Source: Candidatus Kapaibacterium sp. (GTDB lineage: Bacteria; Bacteroidota; Ignavibacteria; Kapaibacteriales; Kapaibacteriaceae). From it: DNA of 33,011 nt. The notes beneath the pieces were generated by a model that had not been told where the DNA came from, did not search any database, and saw only the letters and a list, made by a program, of their open reading frames with translations. Positions 2,347-28,860 of this stretch are shown here, one piece after another. The translations under genes were made by a program, and so were the position numbers. Within the stretch, counting starts at the first letter, position 1, and the number at the start of each line of letters is the position of its first letter. The stretch spans positions 1-33,011 of the forward strand of contig JAURGP010000023.1 of assembly GCA_030833725.1 (NCBI GenBank), read 5' to 3'.

Positions 2347-2700
2347 TCAGATGCAGCCGATGAGATGGCGTACCACTGGACAGCCCCCTACAAGATCTAC
2401 CGCGACAACGTCGAACCGCACCGGAGTTCCATGTCGGTTGGTCACGGTAAGCCACAGCGTGGCTGTTCGGCGCAGGCGTTTGATCTTAGCGGGGGTGATC
2501 GATGCTTCGGGCGTGCCGTAGGCCGTGCTGGTGCGGTGTCGCACTTCAACGAACACGATGTAGTCGCGATCCTGCATGATCAAGTCGATCTCACCAATGT
2601 TGTGGTATCGGTAGTTCCGCGTGATCAGGACAAATTGTTTCCGCTCGAGGTACTCTTGGGCGATGTCCTCGGCATAGGTGCCGATGTCGGTCGTATTCAC
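2347..2700 (-). CDS. yraN: YraN / UPF0102 family endonuclease-like protein
   Basis: This small cytosolic protein of 117 residues is normal in size for UPF0102. It has the restriction-endonuclease-like fold signature: GTYAEDIAQEYL near the N-terminus, then RNYRYHNIGEIDLIMQD, then IVFVEVRHR. The acidic residues in GEIDLI and the E of VEVR correspond to the predicted PD-(D/E)xK metal site; the usual lysine of VEVK is arginine here. Family members are linked to DNA processing, but the cellular role is not settled. It is divergent from ruvA, with 25 bases between the two start codons, and lies 29 bases from the ABC operon start. The decamer GTAGGGGGCT falls in its 3' part (codons V-G-G). Confidence 0.9.
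   Translation of the reverse strand: MNTTDIGTYAEDIAQEYLERKQFVLITRNYRYHNIGEIDLIMQDRDYIVFVEVRHRTSTAYGTPEASITPAKIKRLRRTATLWLTVTNRHGTPVRFDVVAVDLVGGCPVVRHLIGCI
2382..2391 (-). repeat. Decamer GTAGGGGGCT, copy 1
   Basis: Exact copy inside yraN, on the coding strand, read as Val-Gly-Gly. See the finding on this recurrent word. Confidence 0.75.
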
Positions 2701-2725
2701 GGTGTTTTTTCAGAGTTTTGCGGTG

Positions 2726-3325
2726 ATGATTAGCCAACTATCAGGTACGGTCGTACACAAGGGTGCCATGGACGTGGTGATTGACTGTCACGGCGTGGGC
2801 TACGCCGTGAGTGTACCACTGTCCACCCTCGATCACGTGCCTCCGGTTGGGGAAAATGTGACCCTCCTCACCATCCTAGCCGTGCGCGAGGATGCCATGC
2901 AGCTCTACGGCTTTTTCAGCGACGCCGAACGCGAGGCGTTTCGTTTGCTTACCACCATTCAAGGTATCGGTGGGCGAACGGCGCTGGGGATTCTGTCGGC
3001 AACGACCCTCGACGGCCTGCGCACGGCGATCGGCACGGGAAATACGTCGGCGCTCACCCGCCTTCCAGGGATAGGCAAGAAGACGGCCGAACGCATGGTG
3101 GTGGAGCTCCGGGAGAAGATCATCGGCATTGTTCCGGATCCTCATGCTGCACAACCATCGATGGTAGGGGGCTTGTCGCCTGCGGCCGACGATGCCGTGC
3201 GGGCATTGCAGGCACTCGGCTACACCCGCGCTGCTGCAGAGAAGGCCGTTGCCGGAGTGCTGCAGACCGATGCATCGCTGGCAACATCCACAGAGGCGCT
3301 CATCCGCGGGGCGCTGCGACAATGA
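2726..3325 (+). CDS. ruvA: Holliday junction branch migration protein RuvA
   Basis: RuvA (199 residues, the usual length) tetramerises on Holliday junctions and recruits the RuvB motor for recombinational repair. The N-terminal OB-fold begins MISQLSGTVVHK and contains DCHGVGYAVSVP. Two helix-hairpin-helix motifs follow: LLTTIQGIGGRTALGIL and LTRLPGIGKKTAERMVVELREKI. The flexible RuvB-binding domain III is at the C-terminus (DDAVRALQALGYTRAAAEKAV). I chose the ATG at 2726 because it gives the family N-terminus; longer in-frame starts add unrelated residues. A one-mismatch -7 box (GAGTTTTG, 2713-2720) ends 5 nt upstream of this ATG, which suggests another leaderless start. The stop overlaps the next gene's start as ATGA. 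Confidence 0.96.
   Translation: MISQLSGTVVHKGAMDVVIDCHGVGYAVSVPLSTLDHVPPVGENVTLLTILAVREDAMQLYGFFSDAEREAFRLLTTIQGIGGRTALGILSATTLDGLRTAIGTGNTSALTRLPGIGKKTAERMVVELREKIIGIVPDPHAAQPSMVGGLSPAADDAVRALQALGYTRAAAEKAVAGVLQTDASLATSTEALIRGALRQ
3164..3173 (+). repeat. Decamer GTAGGGGGCT, copy 2
   Basis: Exact copy inside ruvA, in the linker before domain III, read as Val-Gly-Gly. Confidence 0.75.
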
Positions 3326-4152
3326 GCCGCCTGCGTCCGTTACTGATCATCCCCGCCATTGATCTTGCCGATGGTCACTGTGCCCGACACGTCTGTGGTA
3401 GTCCGGGCACCGAGCAGCTCTACGCCGAGATGGCCCACCATCCGGTAGAGATTGCTCAGCTCTGGCGCCGAGAAAATGCCAAGTGTCTTCACGTGACGGA
3501 TACAGATTCGTTTGCTGGCCGCAGCGACTCAGCCACCCTCGAGCAGGTGATCGCGATCCAGAAGTCCGTAGACATTCCGGTGGAACTCGTCACGTTTCAG
3601 TCGCAGTTGGACGTGGTGCGTGCCTTGCTCAAAGAAGGCGTCTACCGCGTGGCGGTGAATATCACCGCATGGACCGATCCGGACGGTGTGCAGTCGCTGA
3701 TCTCGGAGTTCACTCCCAGCAGGGTGCTCTTTGGCATGCGCTCGCACGACGGAGCGGTAAACCTTGGTACGACGGCCGGACTGGTGGCCGATGCGGACTA
3801 CCTTGAGCGCGTGGCTGTGCTTGGGGGCCAGCGCATAGTGTACACCGAACAGGATTGGGAGGGGGCTCTCACAGGGGAGGACCTGGCAACGGTGCAACGG
3901 GTGGCCGAAGCTGCTGGACCACGAATGAGGATCACGATGGCTGGAGGGATTGCCTCACCAGAACACCTCTGGGAACTCCAACGTAGTGCTCCAGCAAACG
4001 TTGACTCCGTGGTGATCGGCCGGGCGCTGTACGAAAACCGGTTTCCGTGTCAGGGAATCTGGCGGGAAGTGGAGGCGAAGCTGGAACCTCAGATCCATGC
4101 TCATGCCACGGACAACATCCAGCAGAGCTCGATCTCGCGCCTCTCGCGGTAG
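3322..4152 (+). CDS. HisA/HisF-fold TIM-barrel protein, divergent HisA paralog
   Basis: This 276-residue protein aligns by eye along the whole HisA (ProFAR isomerase) barrel. It has the N-terminal IPAIDLADG with the first catalytic Asp (D14), LHVTDTDSFAGR after strand 2, and the C-terminal phosphate-binding motifs AGGI (207-210) and VIGRALYE (231-238). Two hallmarks of HisA are missing. The strand-3 GGGIR loop is replaced by LVTFQS (about 89-94), and the strand-5 Asp (D127 in Thermotoga maritima HisA) aligns with Arg140 in FGMRSHDG. ProFAR isomerisation is therefore doubtful. The gene is coupled to ruvA by an ATGA overlap and no histidine genes are nearby. It has roughly 30 extra C-terminal residues. 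I call the fold with confidence but not the reaction. Confidence 0.8.
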   Translation: MSRLRPLLIIPAIDLADGHCARHVCGSPGTEQLYAEMAHHPVEIAQLWRRENAKCLHVTDTDSFAGRSDSATLEQVIAIQKSVDIPVELVTFQSQLDVVRALLKEGVYRVAVNITAWTDPDGVQSLISEFTPSRVLFGMRSHDGAVNLGTTAGLVADADYLERVAVLGGQRIVYTEQDWEGALTGEDLATVQRVAEAAGPRMRITMAGGIASPEHLWELQRSAPANVDSVVIGRALYENRFPCQGIWREVEAKLEPQIHAHATDNIQQSSISRLSR

Positions 4153-4173: not shown

Positions 4174-4749
4174 TCACAGAGCGTATACCACTCCAACGTG
4201 TGCTGACATCGCCGACAGCCGATCGGTGGTGAACGTGGTATGGTAGCGTCCGTAGACGTCGATATCGATGGTCTCGTTCAGGGGAATCAACAGGCCTGCC
4301 GACAGGGCATAGGTGAACTTGACTTCACTCAGTCCATCAATCCGCTGAGGGACGTTGCCCACTTCCATGTCGGCAAACACGATACCCAATCCCGCTTCAC
4401 CGGCAACGTACGGTGTGAATCCGTGCTTGAAGAACCGATACTGCAAGCCCCCTACGATCCCCACGTGGGTGAGGCCGAAGTCCGAGAAGTCCAGCGTGTC
4501 GCCAGCATCGACCACCGTACCCAGCTGCATGCGCATCCACGTGGCGCGGGCAGTGAGTCGCAGATGCTTGCTCGAGCCGTAGGCATATCCCAGCGAGAAG
4601 CCCAAGGCCGGCTGGGCGTCCACGCCGCGTGCCAGGGTGTCGGAGGGCCAGCTATAGCTCACGGACAAGGGCACGAAGCTGTCGGGCGTACGTGCGGTGG
4701 CGGGCAGCGCAGATAGGAGCGCGAGGAGAAACAGGATCATGTGCTTCAT
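4174..4749 (-). CDS. Outer-membrane beta-barrel family protein
   Basis: This 191-residue protein has a signal peptide (MKHMILFLLALLSALPATA, cleaved before RTPDS). The mature part alternates hydrophobic and polar residues in a series of amphipathic strands, for example LGFSLGYAYG, LRLTARATWMRM, VGIVGGLQYRFF and FTPYVAGEAGLGIVF, and ends MSAHVGVVYAL. This matches small 8-10 stranded outer-membrane barrels of the OmpA-beta or OmpW-like type common in Bacteroidota; no specific function can be named. I chose the ATG at 4749 rather than the upstream one at 4773 because it gives the signal peptide and because a perfect TATGTTTG box ends 4 nt before it. The gene is convergent with the HisA-like gene, with 21 bases between them. 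Confidence 0.82.
   Translation of the reverse strand: MKHMILFLLALLSALPATARTPDSFVPLSVSYSWPSDTLARGVDAQPALGFSLGYAYGSSKHLRLTARATWMRMQLGTVVDAGDTLDFSDFGLTHVGIVGGLQYRFFKHGFTPYVAGEAGLGIVFADMEVGNVPQRIDGLSEVKFTYALSAGLLIPLNETIDIDVYGRYHTTFTTDRLSAMSAHVGVVYAL
4446..4455 (-). repeat. Decamer GTAGGGGGCT, copy 3
   Basis: Exact copy in the outer-membrane barrel gene, on the coding strand, read as Val-Gly-Gly. Confidence 0.75.
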
Positions 4750-10524: not shown

Positions 10525-11826
10525 CTAGGCAAGCTCCCTGAGGAGGGCTTCACGCTCGATCTCGAGTTGGCGTATGCGGCGCTCGAGGTTGTCGAGCTCC
10601 TCGGGCATGGAGTCGATTTCGATGCGGAGGCGTGAGGCTGCTTCGTCGACGAGGTCGATGGCTTTGTCTGGGAGGAAGCGGTCGGTGATGTAGCGGTTCG
10701 ACAGTTGGGCAGCGGCTACGATGGCAGCATCGGTGATGCGTACGCCATGGTGGACTTCGTAGCGGTCCTTGAGGCCACGGAGGATGCTGATGGTATCGTC
10801 TACTGTCGGCTCGGCTACGAAGACCTTCTGGAAGCGACGCTCCAGGGCGGGGTCCTTTTCGACGTGCTTGCGGAACTCGTCTAGGGTGGTGGCACCAATA
10901 GCGCGTAGTTCGCCGCGAGCCAGAGCAGGCTTGAGGATGTTGGCAGCGTCCATGGCTCCGGAGGTGGCACCGGCCCCAATCAAGGTGTGCATCTCGTCGA
11001 TGAAGAGGATGAACTCGCCATCGGAGTCGGCAACTTCCTTGACCACGGCCTTGATGCGCTCTTCGAACTGGCCACGGTACTGCGTGCCGGCAATGAGTGC
11101 TCCCATGTCCAGGGCGAAGATGGTCTTCGACTTCAGTGATTCGGGTACGTCCTGCGACACAATGCGTTGGGCGATGCCCTCTACGATGGCCGTCTTACCC
11201 ACGCCCGGTTCGCCAATCAGCACTGGATTGTTCTTCGTGCGGCGCGACAAGACTTGTAACACGCGACGGATCTCGTCCTCGCGCCCAATCACCGGATCGA
11301 TCTTGCCCTTGCGTGCCTCGTCGTTGAGGTTGCGAGCGTACTTCTGCAGAGACTGGTAGGCATCCTCGGGATTCTGACTGGTAACCGTGCGATTGCCGCG
11401 AATCTCCTTGAGCACCTTCATGACGGCATCGCGCTGCACGCCCTGATCCTTCAGCAGCGCAGCAGCCTTGGAGGTACCGCTGAGCATGGCCAGCAAGAGA
11501 TGCTCCACGGAGACAAACTCATCACCGAGATTCTGCGCCTCGCCGAAAGCCCCTTGCAGGATCTTTTGCACGTCATTGGATACACTGGCGCTGGAGCTGC
11601 CCTGAACCGTCGGCAGAGCGCTGAGAGCTTCGTTGACCTTGGTACTGAGGAAGCCATGGTTGACGCCCAGCTTGTTGAGGATGGGCAGGGCAATCCCCTC
11701 GGAATCGCTCAGAATGCCCTGGAGCAGGTGAATCGCCTCTATCGTGCCATGGCCGGACGTCGTGGCCAGCTCCTGGGCCGATTGAATGGCTTCCTGGGAC
11801 TTGAGGGTGAGTTTGTTCATGTTCAT
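10525..11826 (-). CDS. clpB: ClpB disaggregase, N-terminal half only (N domain and first AAA module)
   Basis: The 433 residues match the first half of ClpB (about 860 residues when complete). The Clp-N double repeat spans about 1-145. NBD1 has Walker A GEPGVGKT (205-212), Walker B ILFIDE (273-278), a pore loop YRGQFEERI and the arginine-finger region ERRFQKVFV. The protein ends about 25 residues into the coiled-coil M domain ([25 protein letters not shown]) at a clean TAG. NBD2 and the C-terminal domain are absent; the next 31 bases lead straight into the convergent DUF2207 gene, so no remnant follows. It may be a partial copy, one half of a split disaggregase, or a degenerate paralog. A GGAG-type site precedes the ATG at 11826; a second ATG lies at 11820. 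I see no CIRCE element. Confidence 0.9.
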
Positions 11827-12383: not shown

Positions 12384-13952
12384 ATGAACCGAATCCTGTG
12401 GGTCGATGATGAGATCGAACTACTGAAGCCACATCTGATGCTGCTGGAGCAGCGTGGCTACCACGTCATCACCGCCACCAACGGCGAGGACGCCATCGAG
12501 TTGGTGCAGACGGAACCACTGAATCTGGTGTTTCTGGATGAAACCATGGTGGGAATCTCTGGCCTGGAGACACTATCCGTGATCAAGGAGATGCATCCGT
12601 CGCTGCCGGTGGTGATGGTCACGAAGAACGAGCAGGAGTCGCTCATGGAGGATGCCATCGGTCGTAAGATCGACGACTACCTCACCAAGCCGGTGAATCC
12701 TACGCAGATTCTGGCAGCCTGCAAGAAGTTCCTCGACTCACGGCGAATCGCCGAAGCACGCATCACGCAGGATTTCCAGCAGGAGTACAGCTCGATCACG
12801 CGCCGCCTGATGGATCGACTGGACTGGAGTGAGTGGCTGGACATCTACCTGAAGCTGGTGCAGCGCAGTGTGGAACTCGATCATCATGCCGATGTAGGGT
12901 TGTCGCAGTCCTTGAACGATCAGTGGAAGGAGTGCAACGCCGCCTTCTGCAAGTTCATAGAGCAGGACTACCTGTCGTGGCTGGGTGATCGTGATAAGCG
13001 TCAGGAGGGGATGCCCCTGCTGTCTCCGCACATTCTGGATCAGTTCCTCGTTCCACGGCTGCAGAACGGACGACCGACGTTCTTTATCGTGGTGGACTGC
13101 ATGCGCCTGGATCAGTGGTTGGTGATGGAACAGCATCTGCGTGGCATGTTCTCGATCGATCGCCACTACTACTGTGGCATCCTGCCAACGTCAACACCCT
13201 ATGCACGCAACTCCATCTTTGCTGGCCTCTTTCCAACCGACATCAACAAACACTACCCGCAGTTTGCCATCGATGAACGGGGGACCGACGAGCACACACT
13301 GAACAAGAATGAGAAGGAACTGCTCCAGCTCTTTTTGAAGCGCCGACGCATCACGCTCAAGAACGATCTGCAGTACATCAAGATCATCGACACGGACTTC
13401 GGCAAACGCATCGAACAGGACATTCTGCGCTATGCCAAGAATCAGCTCACGGCGATTGTCATCAATGCCGTCGACATGATTGCCCACTCCAGGTCGGACT
13501 ATCCTATCCTGAAGGAGATTGCTCCGGACGAACCTGCCTACCGAACCCTCACGAACTCTTGGTTCCAGCACTCCTCCTTCTACGGCATCCTGAAGTACCT
13601 GTCCACGGTAAAGGACGTCCAGATCGTGATCACGACGGACCATGGTAGCGTGCGGTGCCTGCGCCCCAGCAAGGTGATCGGGGATCGTGATACCACCACA
13701 AACCTCCGGTACAAGATCGGCCGAAACGTCAAGGGCGAGGAACGCGACGCCATGATCATCCGCAACCCCGAGGAGTACAAGATTCCTGCTCCTGGCTTGG
13801 CCACAACCTGCGTGATTGCCAAGGAGGATCGTTACTTCGTGTATCCAACGGACTACAACAAGTACGTCGCCAAGTACCGGGACTCATTTCAGCATGGTGG
13901 AATCTCCCTCGAGGAGATGATCCTTCCTGTTGTAGTTTTGGAGCCCCGGTAA
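12384..13952 (+). CDS. porX: PorX-type response regulator with PglZ domain (type IX secretion regulator)
   Basis: This 522-residue two-domain protein begins with a receiver domain (1-115) with D8, D9, phosphoacceptor D52 (FLDETM) and K102 (YLTKP). A helical linker follows. A PglZ/alkaline-phosphatase-fold domain (about 230-520) holds VDCMRLDQW (D238, D243), LPTSTPYARNS (T271, matching the expected nucleophile position), NAVDMIAH (D364), TTDHGS (D419, H420) and a terminal HGGISLEEM. This is the architecture of PorX, which acts with the histidine kinase PorY to control type IX secretion genes in Bacteroidota; PglZ-domain phosphodiesterase activity on oligonucleotides has been reported. No PorY or por genes are nearby. 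I see no Shine-Dalgarno sequence. Confidence 0.92.
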   Translation: MNRILWVDDEIELLKPHLMLLEQRGYHVITATNGEDAIELVQTEPLNLVFLDETMVGISGLETLSVIKEMHPSLPVVMVTKNEQESLMEDAIGRKIDDYLTKPVNPTQILAACKKFLDSRRIAEARITQDFQQEYSSITRRLMDRLDWSEWLDIYLKLVQRSVELDHHADVGLSQSLNDQWKECNAAFCKFIEQDYLSWLGDRDKRQEGMPLLSPHILDQFLVPRLQNGRPTFFIVVDCMRLDQWLVMEQHLRGMFSIDRHYYCGILPTSTPYARNSIFAGLFPTDINKHYPQFAIDERGTDEHTLNKNEKELLQLFLKRRRITLKNDLQYIKIIDTDFGKRIEQDILRYAKNQLTAIVINAVDMIAHSRSDYPILKEIAPDEPAYRTLTNSWFQHSSFYGILKYLSTVKDVQIVITTDHGSVRCLRPSKVIGDRDTTTNLRYKIGRNVKGEERDAMIIRNPEEYKIPAPGLATTCVIAKEDRYFVYPTDYNKYVAKYRDSFQHGGISLEEMILPVVVLEPR

Positions 13953-27870: not shown

Positions 27871-28860
27871 TTACTCCAGCACCGAGGCTGGCGTTTGATC
27901 CAGCTCGCCGGCGAAGCGCATCAATCGATCCTCGATTTCTGCGTAGCTGTCCATACGCACCACATCCTGGCGAGCTAGGGAATTGTTGGGCAGCCCCTTG
28001 AGGTAGCCACCGTAGTGCTTGCGGAACTCATGGATGGCACGGCGCTCGGGCTTGTACTCCAGCTCCAGACGCAAGTGTTCTAGGCACGTGCTAATCTTTT
28101 CCCGGTGGTGCACCTCGGCTGGTTCTTCGCCCGTGCGCAGGTAGTCCTTTGCCTTTTTAAACAGGAAGGGATGACCAATGGCAGCGCGCCCGACCATCAC
28201 GGCATCTGCGCCAGTGGTATCGAAGGCCCGCTTGACGTCCTGCGGAGTCTTCACATCGCCATTGAGAATCACGGGAATATTCACGGCCTGCTTCACGCGA
28301 GGAATCCATGTCCAGTCGGCCTCACCATCATGGCCCATGTCGCGCGTACGACAGTGCACCGTGAGTGCAGCCGCTCCGACGTCTTCCAGCATCCTTGCAA
28401 CGTCTACAATCACGATGGAGTCGCGCGACCATCCCAGACGGGTCTTGACGGTTACAGGGAGTTTCACGGCGTCGACGATGGCCTTGGTGAGGGCCTGCAT
28501 CGTGTCGGGCTCTTTGAGGAGGGCCGCGCCGGCATTTCGAGCCACCACGTTTTTCACCCAGCAGCCAAAGTTGATATCGATGAAATCCGGTCCGGCTGCT
28601 TCTGCCATTTTGGCTGCCTCAACCATCACGTCCAGGTTGCCTCCGAAAATCTGGATGGACACCGGTCGCTCCTCCGGGTGGAGACGCAGTTTTTCGAGTG
28701 ATCGGCGCGCGTCGCGAACCAATCCTTCGCTGGAGATAAACTCCGTGTACACGATGTCAGCCCCATACCGCTTGCACATCATCCGGAAGGGAAGATCCGT
28801 AACGTCCTCCATGGGGGCCAGGAGGATGCCGTGGTCAACATCGACAGTTCCGATTCGCAT
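27871..28860 (-). CDS. dusB: tRNA-dihydrouridine synthase (DusB family)
   Basis: This 329-residue FMN enzyme reduces uridines in the tRNA D-loop. Its TIM barrel has LLAPMEDVTDLPFRMMCKRYGADIVYTEFIS at the N-terminus, the catalytic cysteine C100 in DINFGC, TVKTRLGW with the FMN-contacting Lys/Arg, TVHCRTRDMGHDGEADW, and NGDVKTP plus VMVGRAAIGHPFLF for FMN phosphate. The C-terminal helical tRNA-binding domain has FRKHYGGYLKGLPN. The residue after the catalytic Cys is Trp where Pro is usual. A perfect TAGTTTTG box ends 4 nt before the start. It ends 13 bases before tilS and is divergent from the GT4 gene. Confidence 0.95.
   Translation of the reverse strand: MRIGTVDVDHGILLAPMEDVTDLPFRMMCKRYGADIVYTEFISSEGLVRDARRSLEKLRLHPEERPVSIQIFGGNLDVMVEAAKMAEAAGPDFIDINFGCWVKNVVARNAGAALLKEPDTMQALTKAIVDAVKLPVTVKTRLGWSRDSIVIVDVARMLEDVGAAALTVHCRTRDMGHDGEADWTWIPRVKQAVNIPVILNGDVKTPQDVKRAFDTTGADAVMVGRAAIGHPFLFKKAKDYLRTGEEPAEVHHREKISTCLEHLRLELEYKPERRAIHEFRKHYGGYLKGLPNNSLARQDVVRMDSYAEIEDRLMRFAGELDQTPASVLE

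Follow-up and report, generated by a model that had tools for sequence, protein, structure and literature searches.

Does a HisA-like gene that has lost parts of the HisA active site still serve histidine biosynthesis, and if it does not, what has the gene been kept for? The question is raised by a contig of Candidatus Kapaibacterium sp. (JAURGP010000023.1), of which the analysed stretch of 33,011 nucleotides is further referred to as the window. The original prediction, made from the letters of the window, was a HisA-fold protein that lacks one catalytic Asp and one phosphate-binding loop, acts on a one-phosphate substrate by a different chemistry and takes no part in histidine synthesis. The features under consideration are listed in Table 1.

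Table 1. Features at the HisA-like locus (nucleotide positions in the window; residue numbers of the HisA-like protein in brackets)
Feature	Position	Strand	Observation
ruvA	2678..3325	+	4-base ATGA overlap with the HisA-like gene
HisA-derived protein	3322..4152	+	276 aa, ATG start; PF00977 barrel, probably repurposed
D14, strand-1 acid	3361..3363	+	D (28) or E (11) in the 39 Kapabacteria-type rows
LWRREN (47-52), end of helix 1	3460..3477	+	R49, E51, N52 in 71/71 retained homologues
VTFQSQ (90-95), at the site of the GGGIR loop	3589..3606	+	From the alignment
R140, in place of the strand-5 Asp	3739..3741	+	From the PriA alignment
TEQDWEG (175-181), strand-6 motif	3844..3864	+	W179-E180 replaces R-D; E180 at the catalytic Asp
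AGGI (207-210), kept strand-7 phosphate motif	3940..3951	+	
GRALYEN (233-239), kept strand-8 phosphate motif	4018..4038	+	
FPCQGIWREVE (241-251), where the C-terminal helix and extension begin	4042..4074	+	F241, C243, Q244, W247, R248, E251 in 71/71
QSSIS in the low-confidence C-terminal tail	4123..4137	+	QS[ST][IL][ST] in 22/22 own-family orthologues fetched
Outer-membrane beta-barrel protein gene, PF13505	4174-4773	-	

Fold and active site of the window protein

The ORF is a real gene. Its product matches the Pfam family His_biosynth over residues 9–241 (E-value 1.1e-33, 117.1 bits) and has the PF00977 (beta/alpha)8 barrel of HisA (EC 5.3.1.16). Its score against the HisA equivalog TIGR00007, 116.7 bits, is about half of the cut-off of 228.95 bits, and it stays under the cut-offs of all other NCBIfam HisA equivalogs matched at the E-value of 0.001. 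The scores against the HisF2/WbuZ families of glycosyl amidation are far below the cut-offs as well (29.2 vs 299.7 and 27 vs 310 bits). TIGR00734 (hisAF_rel), likewise an uncharacterised HisA-like barrel, is matched marginally (E-value 0.0032, 17.3 bits vs the cut-off of 179.85); 21 of 24 orthologues match it at the E-value of 0.01 (best 3.8e-10), but all 24 match TIGR00007 better or far better at the best E-value. A defence gene was considered and dropped, given no match for the protein in PADLOC.

The AlphaFold2 model, built from the 24 orthologues, has pLDDT of 91.1 and pTM of 0.89. HisA, PriA, HisF and engineered HisF are among the matches listed for this model and for that of an eroded homologue described below. 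The best one listed for the window protein is HisAp (4tx9; Z 26.8, rmsd 2.4 over 226 residues); for PriA (2vep and 2y88) Z equals 26.6 in both cases, and HisF appears in the same list from Z 25.2. The predicted HisA fold is thus borne out by the Pfam match and the model. As the best fold match of the model is with HisA and PriA, the motif losses are not an accident of frame or alignment, and misalignment is ruled out as their cause.

D14 is situated at what we take to be the general-base position of HisA. The strand-5 Asp is presumably D127 in the T. maritima HisA numbers, the strand-6 Asp is assumed here to be that of D176 in Salmonella HisA and D175 in PriA, and the R of the GGGIR loop is presumably Arg83. 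In the parts of the cited papers available to us, D176 of Salmonella HisA (SeHisA) and D175 of PriA are described as catalytic (PMC9088769), Asp9 and Asp169 as the catalytic pair of PriA, and Arg83 as contacting the second phosphate of ProFAR (both PMC5404923). In the alignment with PriA, the strand-5 Asp is matched by R140 and the strand-6 Asp by E180. Hence D14 alone is kept of the HisA Asp residues on strands 1, 6 and 5; similarly, of the PriA pair, by which TrpF and SubTrpF function was judged, the first residue is present (D14) and the second one is E180. The phosphate sites of HisA are also altered: VTFQS stands for GGGIR and NI (positions 113–114) for the strand-4 GT, with the strand-7 and strand-8 motifs retained. 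All four features named in the original prediction, namely the presence of D14 and of the C-terminal phosphate site and the loss of GGGIR and of the strand-5 Asp, are therefore seen, and two losses, those of the strand-4 GT and the strand-6 Asp, are added to them. The loss of the second-phosphate loop, together with R140 and E180 at the positions of the strand-5 and strand-6 Asp, makes it very probable that the protein has ceased to be a ProFAR isomerase.

Homologues were compared in 35 functional-type rows and 71 retained rows, the latter consisting of 39 Kapabacteria-type, 19 Ignavibacteria and 13 eroded ones. The conservation rows exclude L050 (partial), L067 (with a masked stretch) and two near copies, L109 and L115 (the latter close to L096), and the focal ORF was not found in four of the 81 sources (L068, L085, L103, L105). 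The 35 functional-type rows count two genes twice (L104/L119, L108/L134), include two rows without the FPCQ extension (L170, L174), and possibly have L108/L134 misfiled among them, with E at both Asp positions and a genome without a HisD match. Position 94 (R of GGGIR) is R in all 35 functional-type rows, and positions 140 and 180 are D in 33 rows each. Kapabacteria-type rows, in contrast, have R at position 94 in 8 of 39 only; R occupies position 140 in 36 of them, with L in the other three, and E occupies position 180 in 38. The phosphate glycines G208, G209 and G233 and an acid at position 14 are kept in all 39, W179 of the pocket has the conservation of 0.92, and G181 and G185, of 1.0. D14 and R140 are thus kept in most Kapabacteria-type rows, with E at position 14 in the rest and R140 falling short of universal. 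The 19 Ignavibacteria copies retain R94 and D140 (18 each), and their position 180 is D in six only (N in six, V in five, H in two). None of the 13 eroded rows has D at 180; D/E14 is found in five of them, G208 in four, G209 in seven and G233 in ten. Read across the groups, with no ancestral reconstruction, the order of losses seems to have been the catalytic Asp first, the second-phosphate loop next and the pocket last.

Pathways, origin and gene neighbourhood

The genome of the window, of Kapabacteria/Ignavibacteria kin, has the length of 1.98 Mb and is 98.4% complete. HisG, HisD, HisF, a second HisA, TrpF, TrpC and TrpD over the cut-off were not found in it, and the sole other PF00977 match is a Dus protein (27871–28860). 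HisD, HisG and HisF represented the histidine pathway in this search, and TrpD, which makes PRA, and TrpC (IGPS), which uses CdRP, represented the tryptophan one; neither pathway is seen by these marks. The original prediction that the gene does not serve histidine synthesis is thereby upheld, and the explanation that it is the only HisA of a complete pathway was rejected.

We extended the search to a panel of 40 genomes (the own one and 39 kin). The window protein has matches in 34 of them at the E-value of 1e-3 and orthologue-grade matches in 32, the own genome included. The eight non-carriers are G012, G023, G025, G026, G034 and G035, with no match, and G028 and G036, whose matches, at 25% identity, reach the Pfam score of a full HisA and were not counted. 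Two carriers, G032 and G039, match at just 30–32% identity and were not fetched; in G039 the match is interrupted by a stop. The five genomes with HisD (G011, G013, G028, G031, G036) are also the five with HisG. Both are missing from 29 of the 32 carriers, and each of the remaining three possesses a separate HisA and a HisF; one more His_biosynth protein, at 187.7 bits, was found in G037, a carrier without HisD. TrpC/IGPS was found in G028 and G036 only, along with TrpD over the cut-off, and both lack the HisA-like gene. TrpF (PRAI) homologues, with no TrpC match or TrpD over the cut-off, are present in G029, G032 and G037 and are possible orphan barrel enzymes.

A scan of named genomes yielded 391 relatives; the best 80, which were retained, are named as Kapabacteria, Ignavibacteria, Chlorobiota, Melioribacter and Stygiobacter, with Rhodothermales at the far end. 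HisD was searched for in the 50 genomes behind 61 loci. After setting aside three from Rhodothermales/Rubricoccaceae (L096, L104, L108), 47 genomes with a retained copy remained; HisD was found in seven of these genomes of unstated completeness, all seven with a separate HisA-HisF pair. As a control, HisD was found in 29 of 30 genomes with functional-type HisA. The FPCQ extension is present in 28 of these 30 HisAs, and in 23 of the 30 loci (L145–L174) the piece that was fetched also contains HisF.

In the IQ-TREE tree of 68 rows, FPCQ-type proteins, both functional and retained, form one group (support 100/99), with seven his-operon HisAs outside it. Kapabacteria-type and eroded proteins are grouped together with support 100/100, the eroded ones being nested inside (100/96). 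Two constraints were not rejected by the AU test, one grouping the retained rows with his-operon HisA (p 0.307) and the other uniting all retained rows (p 0.451), so that the vertical origin rests on the bootstrap support and the shared C-terminal extension. Most likely, the ancestor was a HisA of the Chlorobi/Rhodothermota type with the C-terminal FPCQxxW extension. The available part of PMC8305728 reports an extra C-terminal region shared by HisA of Chlorobi and Rhodothermota, and a shorter, maybe horizontally acquired, HisA in I. album and M. roseus. That picture fits an old HisA kept in a new guise and a new HisA brought in. The Rubricoccaceae gene of L108 (5817–6542; the same gene as L134) has Glu at the strand-5 and strand-6 Asp positions in a genome without a HisD match; it is possibly an independent retained copy in Rhodothermota.

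The predicted coupling to ruvA is real, as seen from the ATGA overlap and from ruvA situated directly upstream in 38 of 81 sources (in 12 of 13 eroded rows). As evidence of function it is weak, since ruvA linkage is missing in all 19 Ignavibacteria rows and nuoG is also nearby in 27 of 81 sources. In the window, the HisA-like ORF and nuoG are separated by the reverse-strand outer-membrane barrel gene; the forward ORF 4240–4716 that overlaps the latter has no Pfam or NCBIfam match and is probably spurious. PfkB is close by in nine of the 19 Ignavibacteria rows, four of which also have PurE, and the set of DapB, DapA and DapD, in six. In four Ignavibacteria loci (L084, L089, L092, L100) the HisA-like gene is directly followed by PurE (AIR carboxylase) and then by PfkB, three of them being near dap genes. 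No single neighbour spans the lineages of the family in the neighbourhoods compared.

Further along the window, the ORF 10525–11826 (−) encodes a Clp-like protein of 433 aa (Clp_N, one AAA, AAA_lid_9), presumably about half of the usual ClpB/ClpC length. Clp-like copies of 433–451 aa recur in nine sources, the window included. The product of 12384–13952 (+) is a response-regulator receiver fused to a PglZ domain, which we take to be the domain combination of PorX from the type 9 secretion system. In L110 a PorZ-like gene precedes the HisA-like one.

Selection and the constrained surface

dN/dS was calculated for 22 hand-picked close pairs. In the 17 pairs with computable dS (it is saturated in the other five and near saturation in some more) it varies from 0.024 to 0.175, with the range of 0.064–0.100 in the eroded clade. 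The gene is under strong purifying selection, the eroded clade included. On this ground a pseudogene was rejected. A decaying relic without function is consistent with the stepwise loss of the active site across the groups, and yet is highly improbable in view of these dN/dS values, the open frames, the confident barrel models and the 22 columns conserved in at least 97% of the 71 retained homologues. The eroded L075 protein still yields a HisA-type barrel (pLDDT 91.1), whose closest structures among the matches listed are SubHisA (4axk; Z 25.4, rmsd 2.2 over 221 residues) and then PriA.

The constraint is distributed differently in the groups. With the faces of the barrel assigned from the DSSP string of the model and not from coordinates, and the rows thinned at 80% identity (22 functional, 16 Ignavibacteria, 30 Kapabacteria-type and 10 eroded), the normalised column entropy of the catalytic face is 0.19 in functional, 0.33 in Ignavibacteria, 0.38 in Kapabacteria-type and 0.56 in eroded rows. 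That of the N-terminal face with helices 1 and 8 is 0.24–0.28 across the groups. The shift of entropy between eroded and functional rows has p of 1e-12 over columns, treated as independent. Regional dN/dS for the catalytic and the other face is 0.048 and 0.070 in functional, 0.074 and 0.056 in Kapabacteria-type, and 0.097 and 0.045 in eroded proteins; for Ignavibacteria, where dS is saturated (3.0), the values are 0.042 and 0.044.

In addition to the residues of helix 1 and of the extension marked in Table 1, the residues invariant in the 71 retained rows include, among others, P86, R109, G168, R171, D228, S229 and N239. In functional HisA the E51-R248 pair swaps jointly with Q/M51 and C/A248. 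This swap makes part of the invariant patch look like an internal contact and thus argues against a partner surface. Seven functional rows (L164-L166, L168, L171-L173) already have E51, R248 and E251; as they carry all three, the suggestion that these residues were newly fixed in the retained copies was dropped. The QS[ST][IL][ST] tail, judged by its motif, looks like a short binding motif.

Explanations and known relatives

The explanation we favour, with about an even chance of being correct, is that a HisA homologue outlived histidine biosynthesis and is now a HisA-derived binding or scaffold protein, its one-phosphate pocket surviving in Kapabacteria. Starting from the ancestral HisA proposed above, the his pathway in Ignavibacteria and Kapabacteria would have been lost, or taken over by a his operon that has a HisA and a HisF of its own, and the old copy would have stayed. 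The selected function would most likely be located on the constrained surface of the barrel N-terminal face, helices 1 and 8 and the extension, and the constraint on this face and helices suggests that a partner is bound or scaffolded. The Kapabacteria pocket (R140, W179-E180-G181 and the strand-7/8 site) probably still binds a single-phosphate metabolite modulating this role, and in the sister clade most of the pocket has been eroded, with the protein still under purifying selection. Several points count against a binding or scaffold role. The remodelled Kapabacteria pocket is well conserved, as in an enzyme; the N-terminal face is also the structural face of the barrel, so its conservation need not mean a partner; dN/dS of the catalytic face in the eroded clade is still about 0.1; and no partner of the HisA-like protein was found.

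More tentatively, we suggest that an old second, non-catalytic role on the N-terminal face and the C-terminal helix of HisA in Chlorobi, Rhodothermota and Ignavibacteria may have kept the gene through the loss or replacement of histidine synthesis. The groups would then form a series from the enzyme, via a catalytically dead protein with both phosphate motifs, to a pseudoenzyme almost without a pocket.

A binding or scaffold role is favoured over the main alternative, a possible but less probable one, that the protein is an active enzyme of new specificity. This alternative extends the original prediction: the protein would be an isomerase or a related sugar-phosphate enzyme with a one-phosphate substrate, D/E14 and E180 serving as the acid and base and R140 holding a carboxylate or a similar group. 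Such an enzyme is consistent with the conservation of these residues and of the strand-7/8 glycines in Kapabacteria-type rows, and with the PfkB kinase, in part together with PurE, near Ignavibacteria copies; according to the available part of PMC5404923, Arg83 of this second-phosphate loop was lost in SubTrpF too. However, the eroded clade has lost the catalytic acids and most of the phosphate glycines and is nevertheless under purifying selection, position 180 is N, V or H in 13 of the 19 Ignavibacteria copies, with R94 kept in 18 of the 19, and no neighbour is common to all lineages. The originally predicted one-phosphate substrate is consistent with the motifs; as to the different chemistry, the eroded sister clade, still under purifying selection with its pocket mostly lost, points at least equally to a non-catalytic role.

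It is very unlikely that the protein is a PRA isomerase (TrpF activity) like the SubTrpF family, which arose from PriA after histidine gene loss. It would have a precedent in Actinomycetaceae (PMC5404923, available part), the loss of the second-phosphate Arg would suit a one-phosphate substrate and TrpF was not found in the own genome; but TrpC/IGPS and TrpD over the cut-off are confined to two of the 40 genomes, the own one not among them, and in both there is no HisA-like gene. With no TrpC and no TrpD over the cut-off in the own genome, TrpF replacement was rejected. The least probable explanation, the sole, diverged HisA of a working histidine pathway, agrees with the sequence family and fold, but HisD, HisG and HisF were not found in the own genome and the carriers with the pathway have a separate HisA.

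The nearest functional kin of the window protein in the tree is HisA of Chlorobi and Rhodothermota, with which it shares the barrel, the FPCQxxW extension, WRxxN of helix 1, R109, R171 and the strand-7/8 phosphate motif. Unlike that HisA, it has no GGGIR, GT, strand-5 Asp or strand-6 catalytic Asp, and its genome has no his pathway match. SubTrpF and SubHisA2, descendants of PriA, are likewise HisA homologues kept after the loss of histidine or tryptophan genes, and the Arg holding the second phosphate was lost in SubTrpF; they differ in having measured isomerase activity in a surviving pathway, and the available part of the paper reports no loss of the catalytic Asp pair (PMC5404923). In the window protein, by comparison, both Asp positions are changed, and the searches showed neither of the two pathways. 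AdeK and SubTrpF2 are similar in that a HisA/PriA homologue beside another such enzyme was recruited to another context, but AdeK is encoded in a cluster for a nucleoside antibiotic and shows detectable HisA activity (PMC13055916, available part), whereas the window gene is surrounded by ruvA, nuo and transport genes. Among the matches listed in the open-licence literature, no prior description of the family was found for this lineage.

HisA and PriA are a textbook example of how enzymes evolve once genes are lost, and the published cases seen move between two isomerase substrates. Here, a HisA persists in most of the Kapabacteria genomes examined and in many Ignavibacteria with no histidine pathway left and, as far as Kapabacteria were tested, no tryptophan pathway either; the constraint moves off the catalytic face. 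The second role, if true, may exist unnoticed in ordinary HisA of Chlorobi and Rhodothermota and can be tested there. The name HisA, when given by family membership, misleads metabolic reconstruction of these largely uncultured bacteria.
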